NCBI GenBank assembly: GCA_022567305.1
Contig: JADFHF010000020.1
Span: 1 to 62,832, forward strand
DNA length: 62,832 nt
Direction: 5' to 3'
DNA from: Bacteroidota bacterium
Lineage (GTDB): Bacteria; Bacteroidota; Rhodothermia; Rhodothermales; UBA10348
Below the pieces are notes generated by a model. The model was given only the letters and a program-made list of their open reading frames with translations, was not told the DNA's origin and did no database searches. Position 1 is the first letter of the stretch; the number at the start of each line of letters is the position of its first letter. Both the position numbers and the translations under genes were made by a program. Positions 34,533-41,219 of this stretch are shown piece after piece.

Positions 34533-35297
34533 ATGCTTTCTCGGATCAGTGGAAAGATACTGTCTTTGACCAAGATCGTTCGCAGAACGCAGACACTTGC
34601 AGCCACATCGGCGACTCTGACGCTTGGCTCGATGACCACGTGGGTGTTCCTTCCATTGGAGCTTCCAGCGCGGCTAGCAATGGCCGTTTCCAGCATCCTG
34701 TTTTTCTCCAGGAAGATCTACATGTATGTCTACGCACGTCACTCTACGAAACGGCTCGAATTTGAAGAGAGATTTGTCTCGCTCAGCTCAAATCCACGGC
34801 ATTTTCGCGAGAGCCTTTCGGCCAAGAGCGAGAGGTGGAATCAGTCCGCGATTGTTCGGAGCATAAAAGGGGCGAACTACAGACCCTACGCGGATGTATC
34901 TCCGTCCAGCATGCCGAACATAAAACTTGAACGGCATCTTAAACGAGCGTTTTCGAACATCGCCCTACCGTCGCCCTGGCCCGACCATACGTTCCTTTTT
35001 CTGTGGATCGGAACCTGGGTGTATCATGCCATCCTGAACCCAAGTCCGAACGTCCTCGCAGCGACCATTCTGGTGGTTACAGGACTGGGTCTGTTTACTA
35101 TGATTTGCTGGCTGGAATTGAGTTTCAATATCTCGTTGCGAGATCAGCGAGTTCGACTCCACACGTTGTATTGGGACCTGGTAGAGTGGCTCGTCGATCA
35201 GTTGTCCCCTCTTCGAGAGACGAAGTCTAATGGGAATGGTTATACCCATAACGAATATTTTCGCGACAATCCATGGTTTGTCGCCAAAGAAAAATAG
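34533..35297 (+). CDS. Hypothetical membrane protein
   Basis: A 254-aa protein of no recognised family. It has two hydrophobic segments near residues 30-65 and a helical hairpin near 150-200 (WIGTWVYHAIL, ATILVVTGLGLFTMICWLEL), with a soluble central part (about 70-145). Codon usage and topology suggest that it is real, while the antisense frames here are short. The gene is followed within 3 bp by the start of a strong hairpin that would also stop plus-strand transcripts. Function unknown. Confidence 0.7.
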   Translation: MLSRISGKILSLTKIVRRTQTLAATSATLTLGSMTTWVFLPLELPARLAMAVSSILFFSRKIYMYVYARHSTKRLEFEERFVSLSSNPRHFRESLSAKSERWNQSAIVRSIKGANYRPYADVSPSSMPNIKLERHLKRAFSNIALPSPWPDHTFLFLWIGTWVYHAILNPSPNVLAATILVVTGLGLFTMICWLELSFNISLRDQRVRLHTLYWDLVEWLVDQLSPLRETKSNGNGYTHNEYFRDNPWFVAKEK

Positions 35298-35365: not shown

Positions 35366-36727
35366 CTAGTTGTTTTGTCCAGAGAAGTCGCGAGGTTTCG
35401 TCGCTTTCTCTCGTACGCGCTCATTGAAGCGCTGCAGCGCTCTCTGAATCTCATCCCGTCTGTTCTGAAGTAGATTGTTCTGGAACGGATTTTGTGATCG
35501 AGTCAACAATGGCTCGATGATCGTAGCCTGAATAACGATAATCAGCTCTTTCTGAGTCTCCGATTGTTGCGTGCGCCCGAACAGATACCTCAAACCAAAG
35601 AACCATCCTGGAAGATCTTTTAAAATCGGGATACCGGAGCGTGTAAAGGACTCATCCGTACTGTACATACCTCCAATAATCGTCTGTTCACCATCCAACA
35701 GAAGAAGCTCAGTGGTAGCCTGGTTTCGGTCGATTACGATACCAGCGGTTGACGGACGGCTACCCGATTTCTCGACTTTTACCTTCAGGTGAATGAATTC
35801 GAGCTCTGGAGACCCCAGTGTGTCAGCGATCGGTTCCGTTATCAGCGTCGGGGTCACATCGATGATGATTCCCGTCTTGAAGAACTGAGTCACGGCGTTT
35901 CCAGAGAAATCACGGACCTGAACAGGAATGTCCGAGCCAACCTGGATGCTACCCATCTTACCGCTTTGCACGGTGATGGACGGACTCGCAATAGTTTCTC
36001 CCAATCCATTCACCTCAGCGAGACGAATAAAAGAGTTGATATCTTTCAGATTGATTAGGTCCGGACCAATAATATTGTCAAAGTTGTCAAACAACTTGTC
36101 TGTTTTGACGAAAATACTGATTCCCTGCTCCTCTGCCTGACCACCCTGTTGACCACCCTGGCCTCCCTGCTGCTGCTGTCCAACGATCACGCTCCAGTCC
36201 AGTCCAAAGTCTCTGGATACGGTATGATCGATTTCGAACAGGATCGCATTGATCCTGATCTGCCTCGTCATGAGTGTGGCAGGAGGACCAAGTAAGCCTG
36301 GCGCAACACCTTGACCACCCGCTGTTACTAGAGCGGCTTCAGAACCCAGAATCAGATTGCTCTCCGGGGCAACTTCAATCATGAAGAACTGCTCTGTCTC
36401 TCGATACTGAAGATTGTTGTATCCGAGTACGAGTTCTAACGCATCCAGAAAGTGCATTCCAGCAATCGAGATACCGATTGGATGTTTGCGCGTTTCCGGA
36501 TCGATGATCTGTTTCGCGGTGACTCGCTGAAAGATTGGATTGAGAAATTGAACAAATCGATCAAACGGTGTCGATGGAAGAAACGATACCAGTTGATCCG
36601 GGGGAATGTAAGTGCGAATCTGCCTTCGAAGAGCCGCATCTTGGGCGCTGGAGGTATTCGCGATTCCCGACCATAATCCCAAGAGCAGAAAGGTGCCCAG
36701 GAAAACTTTTATAATGGATGTACGCAT
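35366..36727 (-). CDS. PilQ/GspD-type secretin
   Basis: A 453-aa outer-membrane secretin monomer. Signal peptide at about 1-28 (SSAQ). A short N-domain follows (about 60-130, GMHFLDALELVLGYNNLQYR resembling an N1/STN fold). The C-terminal secretin domain contains VQSGKMGSIQVGSDIPVQV, KTGIIIDVTPTLI, LDGEQTIIGGMYS and SGIPILKDLPG. A Gln/Gly-rich stretch (about 183-197) lies in the middle. It is small for PilQ. It is last in the pilT-pilMN-pilOP-secretin operon and is followed by the terminator, which supports a type IV pilus or related secretion role. Confidence 0.9.
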   Translation of the reverse strand: MRTSIIKVFLGTFLLLGLWSGIANTSSAQDAALRRQIRTYIPPDQLVSFLPSTPFDRFVQFLNPIFQRVTAKQIIDPETRKHPIGISIAGMHFLDALELVLGYNNLQYRETEQFFMIEVAPESNLILGSEAALVTAGGQGVAPGLLGPPATLMTRQIRINAILFEIDHTVSRDFGLDWSVIVGQQQQGGQGGQQGGQAEEQGISIFVKTDKLFDNFDNIIGPDLINLKDINSFIRLAEVNGLGETIASPSITVQSGKMGSIQVGSDIPVQVRDFSGNAVTQFFKTGIIIDVTPTLITEPIADTLGSPELEFIHLKVKVEKSGSRPSTAGIVIDRNQATTELLLLDGEQTIIGGMYSTDESFTRSGIPILKDLPGWFFGLRYLFGRTQQSETQKELIIVIQATIIEPLLTRSQNPFQNNLLQNRRDEIQRALQRFNERVREKATKPRDFSGQNN

Positions 36728-36761
36728 GGTTCTGGTGATTGTGATAGCTCTTGAAATTTGG

Positions 36762-37763
36762 TCAGTAAGGATTCGAAGGCGTGAGCTTCATCGGACCTAG
36801 CGCCTGGCGAAACTGTTCTTCTGTATCTAGAAAGATCTCGATCTCATCAATAATTCCACCTTTGTTCAGGCGGGCTCGAACCCTGCCCTGGCGTGGATCG
36901 ATCTCTGTTATTTGTCCCAGATAAACGTGGTCGCCTAATGCCAGCGACACAAATCCGTCTTTCGTCTCAAAGACCGCTTGATCTCCTACAATGGAAATAA
37001 GATTAGCCTGTTCAATTTCAAGTAATCCCAACGTATTCGGTGGAATCTGATCAAGAATCAGAGGTAAAAACGGATTTAGAGCGGTTCTACGGGTGGGTAG
37101 GATGCCCGGAGGGAGTTGACTCAGATCCGGAAGCGGTGTTGGGATTCCGCCTTCCTGCCCGATACCCGTTCCTCGTAGATCATCCTGGGCGCTAAGCCCA
37201 GCTGCACCACCGTAGTAGGCTTCAAGCACAAAACTGAAGCTGACCATGACCTCCATTTTGTCGCGATTCGTATCTGGATCGGTCGTAATAAGGTCAAAAT
37301 GAGATAGTTCAAGATTTCGGATCCGGTAGAAGCGTCGCTCGTTTTCGATACTCCAGATCAGGTCGTATAAGCTGTTGAACCGGCCACGACCTGTTATTTC
37401 AAAAATGTATTTCTTGAAACTGGGTTCCGAACTCATGTCGCGGAAGACGACATCGAATGGATTGAATCCGACGCGCGTTTTCTTATTGAGATAGGCGATG
37501 ACTTCTTCGGATACGAGGGTTGTAGGAATCACTTTGTAACGTGATCTCCAACGCCTCATGACTTGGTCCACCTCTGTTTTGGATGCCGTTACTTCCAGCA
37601 TGAGTCCATCAAGTTCGGCTTGCTTACTCTTTGCCAGCTGTTCGGCTTTCTGAAGGCGTTTCATCTCACCTTCCTGCTTGAAGTAGGTGATCCAGATTCC
37701 ACCCCCGGCGACCAGGGCGAAGCACAGCCCGAGGGCGAGAATATTCTGATAAACGTTTCCCAT
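36762..37763 (-). CDS. PilO-PilP-like fusion protein
   Basis: A 333-aa inner-membrane protein. It has one N-terminal helix (about 8-28), a coiled coil (about 30-75), a PilO-like ferredoxin-fold region (about 80-190, with FEITGRGRFNSLYDLIWSIE), a Pro-rich linker (about 205-240), then a PilP/GspC-homology-like beta domain (about 250-320: SIVGDQAVFETKDGFVSLAL, GDHVYLGQITEIDPRQGRV). PilP normally is a separate lipoprotein that contacts the secretin. Both domains here are in one chain; the PilP part is called from its pattern and position only. 34 bp separate it from the secretin gene. Confidence 0.78.
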   Translation of the reverse strand: MGNVYQNILALGLCFALVAGGGIWITYFKQEGEMKRLQKAEQLAKSKQAELDGLMLEVTASKTEVDQVMRRWRSRYKVIPTTLVSEEVIAYLNKKTRVGFNPFDVVFRDMSSEPSFKKYIFEITGRGRFNSLYDLIWSIENERRFYRIRNLELSHFDLITTDPDTNRDKMEVMVSFSFVLEAYYGGAAGLSAQDDLRGTGIGQEGGIPTPLPDLSQLPPGILPTRRTALNPFLPLILDQIPPNTLGLLEIEQANLISIVGDQAVFETKDGFVSLALGDHVYLGQITEIDPRQGRVRARLNKGGIIDEIEIFLDTEEQFRQALGPMKLTPSNPY

Positions 37764-37798
37764 TTTCTTTTCGCTGTTATCGTGTGACCTGGGTGTAA

Positions 37799-39664
37799 TT
37801 AGTCTCCAACAGAATCCTGATCTTTCTCGGCTGGTGCGTTGGCATTATCCAGGATCACATTATTGCGTAGATAGACAGCTGCTTTCGGCAACTCTCTCGG
37901 AATTCTCCGTCGCATACTGAAACTGTAGACAGGCCATCCACGAATCTCAGAGAATGAAAGTGTCTCGATCGTGGCGTTGGACTGCGTGGCAAAAGCGACG
38001 ACCTCATCGCGATCCGTTGCGTTTCCTTCGAGTCGAAGGAAATCGCCGTCTTCGCTCCACCTCTCAATCCAGATTCCCCGTACGTCCGCAGAAACGTCTG
38101 CGGTATGTTCGAGTGCGCGACTCCAGGCATCGCTTCCGACGAGGAGAGAATCCAATACATCGAGGGACGTCAGATACCCTATCGTTTGAGCTCGCAAACT
38201 GTCTATACGCGACTGAAGAACCTTAACATTAGCTTCAATCAAGGCCTCTGGAATGTGGCTCAGTTCATACCGGTAAAGCTCTATCTCATGTCGCTGGGCG
38301 AAATACCTGTACACAAAGAAAAGTGATGTACAGAAAAGCACTCCGTACGTCGCGGCGATCTGCCATGAAAACGGCAGCTGAAACTGAGCCTTAAGTAGAT
38401 CCTTGGGTAGGAAATTGACGGGCGGAAATACTTTCTTGTGCAGATCAGACCCGATCACCCGAAGGGTAACCGCTGCAGCCAGAATCGCCTCTCCGTGGAG
38501 CGCAAGGGCACCATCGCCTGCATGCTTTGGAAGGTAGGAACGCAACAATTCTACCCTCGTGTCGGGGAAGAACGTACGAAAACTCTCAACCAGTCCTGAC
38601 TCCCGCTCCTCACCCAGGAGAACCACCATGTCGGCGTCACCCAGCCCAATTTCATCTTGTAAAAGCAGCACACGGCTACAGATGGTTTCAGGCGGATCGA
38701 TCGCTGTAATTGACCGAAGGCTCTCGAAGAGAACGAGCTCTTCTCCTTCGATAAACATGACAATCGTATCCCCGACACCGGCTCTTACGAACAAAATACG
38801 ACCTTCTTCATAGGTATTGGATCTAGGAGAATCAACGCTTTCGGCGCTGAGTAAATACACTGCTCTTGCTAAACCGTGATAGAGTGTAAACTCCGTATCG
38901 AACAGTTCTACTGGCGGAAGCGGTCGTTTTCGGGCCCGGATGTCTGCAATGGTCGGACCGACTGGTTCAAAAGCCTTCGTAAATACTGCCAGGCTCCGCT
39001 GCTCTCCCTCCTTCTTAGATTTCATGGGAAGGAATGTAACCTTGCCTTCGTCCACTTCACCTGGATGCTTCTCTTTCAGGGCTTCCATCCTTGCATTGCT
39101 TGAACGCGAACCGTTTCCGAGGCTGAACTTCTTTTTCTTCTTGCTCTTCTTGTCCTTTTTCGCAGACCTACCTTTTTTGAACGAGGGAGACTCATCGCCG
39201 CCGATAAGAATCTCTTCGGTCTCGAGAAACGTCGAACCGACAGTAAATGCGATCCGAAACTCATCGTATCCAGCGTCTTTGCACTCGGTGATGATGTCGA
39301 GTAATTCGATGTCAAATTTTTTGGCCGACTCGTACATGGACATCGACATCTCAGAATAACCGGATTCAAGTGAGTCAGGAAGAATAGGCGCAGAGTCGAA
39401 GTCGCCGGACCCTTGGAACTCGGATCCAAGAAACATGGAATCAGGTCTCTGAACGTACTCGCCGACATGAAATGATGAATCGCCGGAAGAGCGGTCACTT
39501 AACTCCGGGGTCAGAGGTCCAAACGTGTCGCCGCGACCTCGCGACCGATGGAATTTCTTCAATATGACCGGGCCGTCCGTCGTATTGTGAACGAGTACAG
39601 CGTTAATAGCCTTTGGAGAGGCTGAAATTCCAAGTACATATTCTGTTGAACCGATACGCTTCAT
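37799..39664 (-). CDS. PilM-PilN-like fusion protein
   Basis: A 621-aa protein. The N-terminal part (about 1-410) is a degenerate actin-like PilM/GspL domain starting YVLGISASPKAINAVLV. Where PilM has DIGA for the phosphates this has VRAGVGDTIVMF (about 296-307), so ATP binding may be lost. A Lys-rich insert (about 163-185) interrupts it. The C-terminal part is PilN-like: NFLPKDLLKAQ then a helix (about 428-450) and a coiled-coil periplasmic domain. PilM and PilN form the inner-membrane platform of type IV pili. The gene lies 22 bp after the ATPase and 35 bp before the PilO-PilP gene. Confidence 0.8.
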   Translation of the reverse strand: MKRIGSTEYVLGISASPKAINAVLVHNTTDGPVILKKFHRSRGRGDTFGPLTPELSDRSSGDSSFHVGEYVQRPDSMFLGSEFQGSGDFDSAPILPDSLESGYSEMSMSMYESAKKFDIELLDIITECKDAGYDEFRIAFTVGSTFLETEEILIGGDESPSFKKGRSAKKDKKSKKKKKFSLGNGSRSSNARMEALKEKHPGEVDEGKVTFLPMKSKKEGEQRSLAVFTKAFEPVGPTIADIRARKRPLPPVELFDTEFTLYHGLARAVYLLSAESVDSPRSNTYEEGRILFVRAGVGDTIVMFIEGEELVLFESLRSITAIDPPETICSRVLLLQDEIGLGDADMVVLLGEERESGLVESFRTFFPDTRVELLRSYLPKHAGDGALALHGEAILAAAVTLRVIGSDLHKKVFPPVNFLPKDLLKAQFQLPFSWQIAATYGVLFCTSLFFVYRYFAQRHEIELYRYELSHIPEALIEANVKVLQSRIDSLRAQTIGYLTSLDVLDSLLVGSDAWSRALEHTADVSADVRGIWIERWSEDGDFLRLEGNATDRDEVVAFATQSNATIETLSFSEIRGWPVYSFSMRRRIPRELPKAAVYLRNNVILDNANAPAEKDQDSVGD

Positions 39665-39686
39665 TGCAATTAGGGGTGTTTTCTTC

Positions 39687-41021
39687 CTACTGAATCAATT
39701 GATTCAATCTGCGCTTGTTATTGCCAAAATTGAGTGCGGTCTCGCGTGTAATTTGTCCCTCGCGTAACAGTCGAAATAGGTCCTGCTCGAGCGTACACTG
39801 TCCGTGGGCTGTCCCTTCCCACACCATCTGGTAAACCTCGTTAATGTTGCCATTCTTAATGGCGGCACGCGCCGGGGGCGTCATCCAGAGGACTTCCTTG
39901 GCGAGTACTCGCCCGCCACTGGTGCTGGGAACAAGTTTCTGAGAGATGATGCATCGAAGAACGTCGGCGAGTCGATTTCGAACGCGGGTCTGTTCTTCAT
40001 GGGGATACTCAGCGATGATTCGATCGATGCTCTCAACGGCTGAGGACGTATGAAGTGTAGAAAACACTTTGTGGCCTGAGTCCGTGATCTCGAGAGCTGC
40101 AGAAATCGTTTCCGGGTCACGCATCTCACCGATCACGATGATATCCGGATCCTGTCGAAGAGATTGAACGATCCCGTCCTTGAAGTTCGGCACATCGCGA
40201 CCCACCTCTCGATGTCGTATGATGCACTTTTTCGAATCATGCCGGTACTCGATCGGGTTTCCAATAATTACGATGTGACCGTGTAATTCTTCATTGTTGG
40301 CGTCGATGATGGCATCCAGCGTGGTCGATTTACCTGAGCCCGTCACGCCCGTTATCAGAGTGAGGCCATCGCGGACGTACTGAAACATCATTCCGCGTTC
40401 CACACTCGGGTGTAAGTTGATCGATTTCAGCGTGCGTAGTTGATCCGTAATAGCGCGCATGTTGAGTGCGAGATATTCCATGTCGAAGTAGACGGTGGCA
40501 CGCAGTCGCACGGAACGTCGCTGTCCCCTGACGGCGACCTGATAAGAAAAGTCGGTTGCTCCCCGCTCCAAGATTCTCGTGACGTTAACTTCATCAAGTA
40601 GGTTTAAGATCAAGAAATTCGTTTCGTCGACGGTATAGCCGCCGGCTCCACGGTCCGGGCTCTTGTCGCCGTGGATTCGGTACCAAACCGAACCGTTTGC
40701 AGATTCGCCGCCCATGTCAATATCCGAAGCATCTGATCTGATCATTTTGCTGATCAACTGGTCCATGTGGACGTGCATTGAGATCCGATCCTTGGCCTTG
40801 AGCCGCTTAAGTTGGTCGAGCTGATAAGCCAGTCGGCCGCCGCCTCGAAGGCGGTCCGGTGTGTTCTCAGCTAACGACGCACAAGCCGGAGGAATAGGAG
40901 ACACGCTACGAGGAGACTGACGTCTGGCAACGCGCGCCTTTGCAGGTAGGGGCGCGGCTCCGTTCGACGGATTACGTGAGTCGGAACGTGATGGCTTATT
41001 ACTTATATCTCGGGTCGGCAT
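39687..41021 (-). CDS. PilT-like type IV pilus ATPase
   Basis: A 444-aa secretion/twitching ATPase. After a basic, low-complexity N-terminus (about 1-60) comes the N-domain, then Walker A GVTGSGKST (about 225-233), Walker B DIIVIGEMRDPETISAALE and the His box STLHTSSAVESIDRII, then LADVLRCIISQKLVP. These fit PilT-type retraction ATPases better than PilB. Odd: the Asp-box reads GNPIEYRH instead of EDPIEYxH. I use ATG 41021; a GTG at 41084 extends the frame. No other pilus ATPase (PilB) or platform protein PilC is in the window. Confidence 0.9.
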   Translation of the reverse strand: MPTRDISNKPSRSDSRNPSNGAAPLPAKARVARRQSPRSVSPIPPACASLAENTPDRLRGGGRLAYQLDQLKRLKAKDRISMHVHMDQLISKMIRSDASDIDMGGESANGSVWYRIHGDKSPDRGAGGYTVDETNFLILNLLDEVNVTRILERGATDFSYQVAVRGQRRSVRLRATVYFDMEYLALNMRAITDQLRTLKSINLHPSVERGMMFQYVRDGLTLITGVTGSGKSTTLDAIIDANNEELHGHIVIIGNPIEYRHDSKKCIIRHREVGRDVPNFKDGIVQSLRQDPDIIVIGEMRDPETISAALEITDSGHKVFSTLHTSSAVESIDRIIAEYPHEEQTRVRNRLADVLRCIISQKLVPSTSGGRVLAKEVLWMTPPARAAIKNGNINEVYQMVWEGTAHGQCTLEQDLFRLLREGQITRETALNFGNNKRRLNQLIQ

Positions 41022-41219
41022 GGTCCGTATTCCGGTTTTTTGGAAAGTCAGAGCTGGCGTTCGCGAACCCGCGAAATGGGGCACCTTTCTAGGATCATAT
41101 CGGCTATAGATGCCTGCACTTAAGAACTATTCGGGGCCCAAAAATGCCGAAATACGGCCATATTGGCCAGTCAGTGGAGTTTTAGAATCAAAACGAGACA
41201 ATCCTGACGACCTGAACGA

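Follow-up and report, generated by a model that had tools for sequence, protein, structure and literature searches.

The DNA analysed here (the window, 62,832 nucleotides, positions 1 to 62,832 of contig JADFHF010000020.1) comes from a Rhodothermales bacterium of the Bacteroidota (assembly GCA_022567305.1) and carries a minus-strand operon encoding a PilT-like ATPase, two fused proteins (PilMN and PilOP) and a PilQ-like secretin. We consider it very likely that this operon and a second contig of the same genome, C74, together encode a type IVa-like pilus whose pilins have no leader. Under this explanation, and with the same high confidence, the window operon supplies PilT as the retraction motor, PilMN and PilOP as the alignment complex of the inner membrane, and the outer-membrane secretin. 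We also think it probable that the system belongs to an ancient type IV pilus branch in several phyla of the Fibrobacteres–Chlorobi–Bacteroidetes (FCB) group (Rhodothermota, Ignavibacteria, Kryptonia, KSB1, Calditrichota, Electryonea and relatives), with leaderless major and minor pilins. A prepilin peptidase would not be needed in this branch, being of no use because the pilins are made without a leader. The computed basis for these conclusions is gene content, gene order in relatives, absence of a leader, an undetected A24 peptidase, a predicted pilin fold and a distinct PilC clade. The source genome (3.76 Mb, 115 contigs, 95.6% complete) was compared with 31 relatives and 244 genomes of the class, and named genomes were scanned by DNA pattern.

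The initial annotation of the window reported no pilin, PilB or PilC nearby. This holds within the window, yet all three are encoded elsewhere in the genome. Contig C74 encodes one PilC and a PilB; the PilB and PilC matches were to T2SSE (E 4.4e-98) and T2SSF (E 2.9e-28), respectively. The PilB on C74 has an MshEN domain (PF05157, 26.0 bits, cut-off 23.1), which we take to be of the cyclic di-GMP-binding type. Immediately upstream of PilC are two open reading frames (ORFs) of 148 and 138 residues, which start MGQQQLLLLVLGIVIVG and MGQQQLLLLVMGIIIVG. Comparison of gene order showed both halves of the system in a single locus in the relatives G020, G024 (Roseithermus sacchariphilus, order Rhodothermales), G026, G028 and G030. 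The order (L254, L258) is one or more pilins, sometimes an O-antigen-ligase gene, PilC, PilB, three candidate minor pilins (m1, m2 and m3), PilT, PilMN, PilOP and PilQ; in G028 the gap between PilB and PilT is too small for m1–m3. The suggestion that the operon belongs to a derived pilus is supported.

The pilins begin MGQQQLLLLVLG, with neither a basic leader nor Glu5. A DNA pattern for MGQQQLLL was found in 28 of the 31 relatives (reversed control, 0/31) and in 153 of the 244 class genomes. From 110 stretches, listed as 80 loci, 95 of 110 pattern matches (67 of 80 loci) were kept as pilins on the basis of length and hydrophobicity; of the loci dropped, 12 look like chance matches and L201 is cut off. 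The invariance of MGQQQL among the aligned pilins is imposed by the search pattern, and its looser N-terminal neighbours include MAQQQLMLL and MGQQQLLLI. An in-frame stop lies within 300 nucleotides upstream of 93 of the 95 pilins, with no intervening start codon in 88 of these 93, and 59 of the 95 have a Shine-Dalgarno-like site, compared with 12% at random places. In 18 of the 93 the stop is at most three codons upstream (one codon for the first pilin of the source genome), so that a six-residue leader ending at Gly2 is ruled out there whatever the start codon. No Lys or Arg precedes the membrane helix in any of the 95 pilins, compared with one to three in six E. coli K-12 pilins and pseudopilins. 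Residues 6–9 were Leu or Phe, leaving no Glu5, in 86 of 86 pilins, a result partly forced by the search pattern. Cysteine counts were even in 74 of 86 distinct full-length pilins (43 with none, 29 with two, 2 with four), a distribution that would be consistent with an extracytoplasmic domain. Of seven MGQQQ pilins scanned with Pfam, none was recognised, and the best N_methyl match in the source genome (E 8.5) was under the cut-off.

The candidate minor pilins also start with a few residues followed by a membrane helix. All 29 (29/29) lack an upstream start, which holds by construction, because each ORF was begun at the first start codon following the stop; this only caps the leader at a few residues. 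Their role was assigned from position, size and N-terminus, since searches of m1–m3 against Pfam gave no useful family match.

The pilin fold was predicted with AlphaFold from the Roseithermus sequence and an alignment of 79 of the 86 sequences (without L126, L137, L144, L159 and the second matches of L168, L188 and L200). The model (predicted local distance difference test, pLDDT, 90.7; predicted template modelling score, pTM, 0.79) has a helix at residues 3–55 followed by beta strands, and so would have the long N-terminal helix and beta-sheet head of a pilin. When the 1000 best chains from a Foldseek search were realigned to the model, ranks 1–9 were all type IV pilins (Z 5.1–7.5), including the following (rmsd, root-mean-square deviation).

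1oqw, PAK pilin: Z 7.5, rmsd 3.3, 118 residues aligned
5v23, PilV: Z 7.2, rmsd 2.5, 88 residues aligned
4noa, PilE: Z 7.1, rmsd 3.3, 90 residues aligned
1ay2, gonococcal pilin: Z 7.1, rmsd 3.4, 120 residues aligned

We regard this unbroken run of pilins at the top ranks as a stronger sign of a pilin fold in the model than the Z values themselves. Residue 4 of the model pairs with residue 1 of the mature 1oqw and 1ay2 pilins. On our reading of that pairing, Gly17 would sit at Gly14, which we take to be a canonical pilin position, and Leu8 at Glu5.

The A24 prepilin peptidase (PF01478) gave no match in the source genome at E 0.1. It was above the cut-off in 3 of the 31 relatives and gave a match in 19 of the 244 class genomes, 16 of which also have the pilin pattern. 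Cross-reading of the two class-wide scans (pilin pattern and PF01478) showed that A24 was not found in 137 of the 153 pattern-bearing genomes. It was likewise not found in 11 of the 19 genomes behind the named loci, including both Kryptonia, both Ignavibacteria, Salinibacter, Salinivenus, Roseithermus and KatS3mg041; the Roseithermus and KatS3mg041 genomes are complete. As a control, PF01478 was positive in 12 of 14 named genomes. The genome of G026 has an A24 gene as well as the leaderless system. This gene clusters with a canonical PilC and with a pseudopilin-type protein that has the canonical GFTLVEVVV start (L259:4571-11898), which suggests a separate, ordinary system.

The gene order is repeated in distant phyla. 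Loci from KSB1, Calditrichota, Electryonea and from metagenome-assembled genomes have a pilin, PilC, PilB, one to three m1–m3 candidates (none in L165) and, where the stretch reaches that far, PilT. PilC of the source genome is 39–48% identical to PilC of the distant lineages and 58% to that of KatS3mg041, compared with 22% and 26% to canonical PilC proteins from its own order. In a PilC tree of 26 rows, support was 100/100 for the split between 19 rows of the leaderless system and 7 canonical ones (5 distinct), although the E. coli branches are long.

Further arrangements were seen among the listed loci. An O-antigen-ligase-like gene lies between the pilins and PilC in three of them (L254:3935-5449, PF04932 E 1.3e-18; L256:4243-5799; L257:3944-5464), and its position makes it a candidate pilin O-glycosyltransferase. 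The source genome has a second PilB, a lone PilB-like ATPase on contig C32 (L002:1480-3435), with no PilC or pilins nearby. L261 (G013) has two MGQQQ pilins and a shortened PilB, with no PilC between them, and PilMN is absent from that genome; this system is probably decaying. L159 and L163 contain ORFs that begin as an MGQQQ pilin and end like PilB, and are probable assembly chimeras or deletions.

The four ORFs of the window operon are as first described.

39687-41021, minus strand: PilT-like retraction ATPase, with the Walker A motif GVTGSGKS (DPDIIVIGEMRD); ORF open back to a GTG at 41084
37799-39664, minus strand: PilM-PilN-like fused protein, 621 residues; PilM part assigned by position and motif, C-terminal part PilN-like, membrane helix near residue 440
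36762-37763, minus strand: PilO-PilP-like fused protein, 333 residues; assigned by position, length and eye, with no family match
35366-36727, minus strand: short PilQ-like secretin (PF00263), 453 residues; the sole secretin found in the genome

The sequence matches make the identities of PilT and the secretin certain. PilT scored 311.7 bits (E 6.3e-93) against TIGR01420 (pilT_fam), just short of the cut-off of 319.1, and matched a solved PilT structure (2ewv in the PDB) with E 3.8e-60. The secretin matched PF00263 with E 1.7e-28; the best of ten NCBIfam models was PilQ, at 92.1 bits far under its cut-off of 284.4, and the GspD model gave 64.9 bits. Searched singly, the 621- and 333-residue proteins matched no curated family in Pfam or NCBIfam above the cut-off.

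The claim of a fused operon was partly confirmed: it held for the ORFs, PilT, the secretin, the PilMN fusion and its PilN half, with the PilM, PilO and PilP parts assigned by position, length and motif. Fusion of PilM and PilN is not an artefact, since orthologs were found in 25 of the 31 relatives. Alignments of PilMN and of PilOP contained 18 sequences each, out of the 25 genomes with PilMN. The PilMN profile matched Myxococcus PilN (3jc8) across its C-terminal part (E 1.6e-6), and 7 of the 18 members matched Pfam PilN weakly (best 0.0073); a PilN half is thus supported by sequence comparison. Neither GspL nor GspC was matched among the 18 members, which gave one weak GspM-type match. The PilMN and PilOP profiles found nothing usable in E. 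coli K-12 HofM, HofN, HofO, HofP and GspL, single distant sequences being a weak test, and a single-sequence AlphaFold model of PilMN (pLDDT 31) was uninformative.

The replacement of the ATP motif in the PilM part by VRAGVG, noted in the initial annotation, is present and is a conserved feature, as R294, G296, D299 and T300 are invariant across the 18 orthologs. The Lys-rich insert it described is also there, and falls in a region that varies in length and composition. Separate PilM and PilN genes, which would make the fusions spurious, did not emerge: PF11104 (PilM_2) gave weak matches alone in the source genome, and likewise in all 31 genomes, to proteins that we read from size and position as FtsA, MreB and DnaK. 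The pilin pattern was found in 25 of 25 genomes with PilMN and in 3 of the 6 without (p 0.004, the relatives not being independent). Roseithermus has a second, paralogous full locus (L266 in G024) consisting of a pilin, PilC, PilB, m1, PilT, two ORFs for the PilM and PilN parts, PilOP and PilQ. In this locus the regions matching PilMN residues 2–378 and 389–603 are about 1 kb apart, as expected of two modules, although an insertion could also explain the split. GspL of type II secretion is, we assume, itself a combination of PilM-like and PilN-like parts. The fusion is for this reason less remarkable than first thought; the unusual part is the pilins and the missing peptidase.

Two neighbours of the operon were also noted. 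A subtilase (PF00082; 41298-42905, minus strand) with a lipoprotein-like SGCLDQVID start lies directly upstream of PilT. A similar start (SGCMDQVVDT and the like) was seen by eye upstream of PilT in 8 of 12 listed loci of relatives, and the protein is possibly part of the system. A 254-residue protein with no Pfam match (34533-35297, plus strand) is convergent with the secretin gene.

Several points weigh against a leaderless pilus that dispenses with the peptidase. A24 is present in 16 of the 153 pattern-bearing class genomes and in 8 of the 19 genomes behind the named loci, and 5 of the 93 pilins have a possible upstream start. Foldseek with the pilin model gave no significant match, yet placed pilins at ranks 2, 6, 12, 17 and 18, and all Z values for the model are below 8, possibly reflecting just a common arrangement. 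Searches with tblastn for m1–m3 in the window and in two further stretches of the source genome (L038 and L039) found nothing. The PilM half and the PilO and PilP assignments draw on position, on length and on motifs judged by eye, not on a sequence match, and the pilus itself is proposed from genes and predicted structure.

Four other explanations were weighed. The initial annotation had also raised a secretion apparatus. Such an apparatus, or a short pseudopilus, in place of an extended retractable pilus would fit both the fused alignment proteins, which resemble type II secretion through the analogy with GspL, and the several short pilin-like proteins. We think this unlikely because PilT sits in the operon; it is kept in every listed locus that covers this region apart from L055, whose contig ends there. 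The PilQ model also outscores the GspD model on the secretin, and many relatives have two major-type pilins per genome.

It is also improbable that MGQQQ is itself a much-reduced leader, some five residues long, which a non-A24 peptidase removes by cutting between Gln5 and Leu6 (or after Gly2), in an otherwise ordinary pilus. The hydrophobic stretch of the pilins does begin only at Leu6, and their best hydrophobic window lies at a distance from Met (6–9) that overlaps the one in E. coli pilins (8–13). However, such a leader would have no basic residue and no Gly before the cut, and no known peptidase was found for it in the PF01478 scans. Moreover, as residue 4 pairs with residue 1 of the mature PAK and gonococcal pilins, the Gln residues overlap the mature chain.

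We give very little credence to misread starts, with a leader arising from an upstream non-standard start codon. The five loci with a possible in-frame standard start upstream are the evidence for it, whereas the other 88 have none, the Shine-Dalgarno-like sites of 59 of the 95 fit the Met of MGQQQ, and in 18 of the 93 the nearby stop, one codon away in the first pilin of the source genome, leaves no room for a six-residue leader ending at Gly2. A retraction-only platform without a filament, suggested because the window holds nothing else of the system, is scarcely tenable given that PilB, PilC and pilins are in the genome and are contiguous with the operon genes in relatives.

For the leaderless pilus, we infer Met removal, membrane topology, a filament and its retraction as follows. 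Translation would begin at Met-Gly-Gln-Gln-Gln, with no leader, and methionine aminopeptidase would probably take off at most the initiator Met, because Gly follows. The pilin would enter the inner membrane via its hydrophobic N-terminal helix, without a prepilin peptidase step. PilB and PilC would then polymerise the filament directly, through the alignment complex and the secretin, and PilT would retract it.

If this is true, a supposedly universal first step of type IV filament assembly is dispensable, and the lineage offers a natural experiment on the purpose of the leader and of N-methylation. It would bear on what sets the orientation of a pilin in the membrane if no charged leader is present, and on filament formation in the absence of Glu5. 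Hypothetical proteins from many uncultured lineages would also gain a possible function. A limited search of the open-licence PMC literature found no description of leaderless pilins.

A type IV filament is defined, in passages of PMC4471445, by a class III signal peptide (a leader of 6–26 residues ending in Gly) and a dedicated peptidase. The system described here has a predicted pilin fold, PilB, PilC, PilT and the secretin PilQ, and lacks the leader and Glu5, with no dedicated prepilin peptidase detected in most genomes. As both the signal peptide and the peptidase were looked for and not found, we do not file it as a strict member. Going by the same passages, filaments are detected and annotated by these two features, and a lineage without both escapes such searches. 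Excerpts of the report on Melioribacter roseus (PMC3534657) list pilT, pilQ, pilB and pilC, with pilA and pilD not found, and for want of these two the pilus was judged incomplete. Leaderless pilins would account for such published pilus machines in which pilA and pilD are missing, and M. roseus is expected to carry MGQQQ pilins.

Among known systems, the closest is the type IVa pilus (PilA, PilB, PilC, PilT and PilMNOPQ; Neisseria, Pseudomonas and Myxococcus), to which this one is homologous, and it should work alike. Both have the PilT, PilB, PilC and secretin families, a PilN-like domain, a pilin fold (here predicted) and separate assembly and retraction ATPases. In contrast to the type IVa pilus, the leader and Glu5 are absent here, the peptidase is undetected in most genomes, the alignment proteins are fused, the secretin is short and the pilins go unrecognised by Pfam. 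The type II secretion system (GspC-GspO) belongs to a common superfamily and presumably shares the fusion, in GspL; here, however, PilT is present, the secretin is nearer PilQ than GspD, and GspL and GspC gave no match among the 18 aligned members. Loci of the mannose-sensitive haemagglutinin (MSHA) type also lack a prepilin peptidase gene, but those genomes encode a peptidase in other systems, as parts of PMC6668835 report, whereas in the present case the majority of genomes are without one and the pilins are leaderless.

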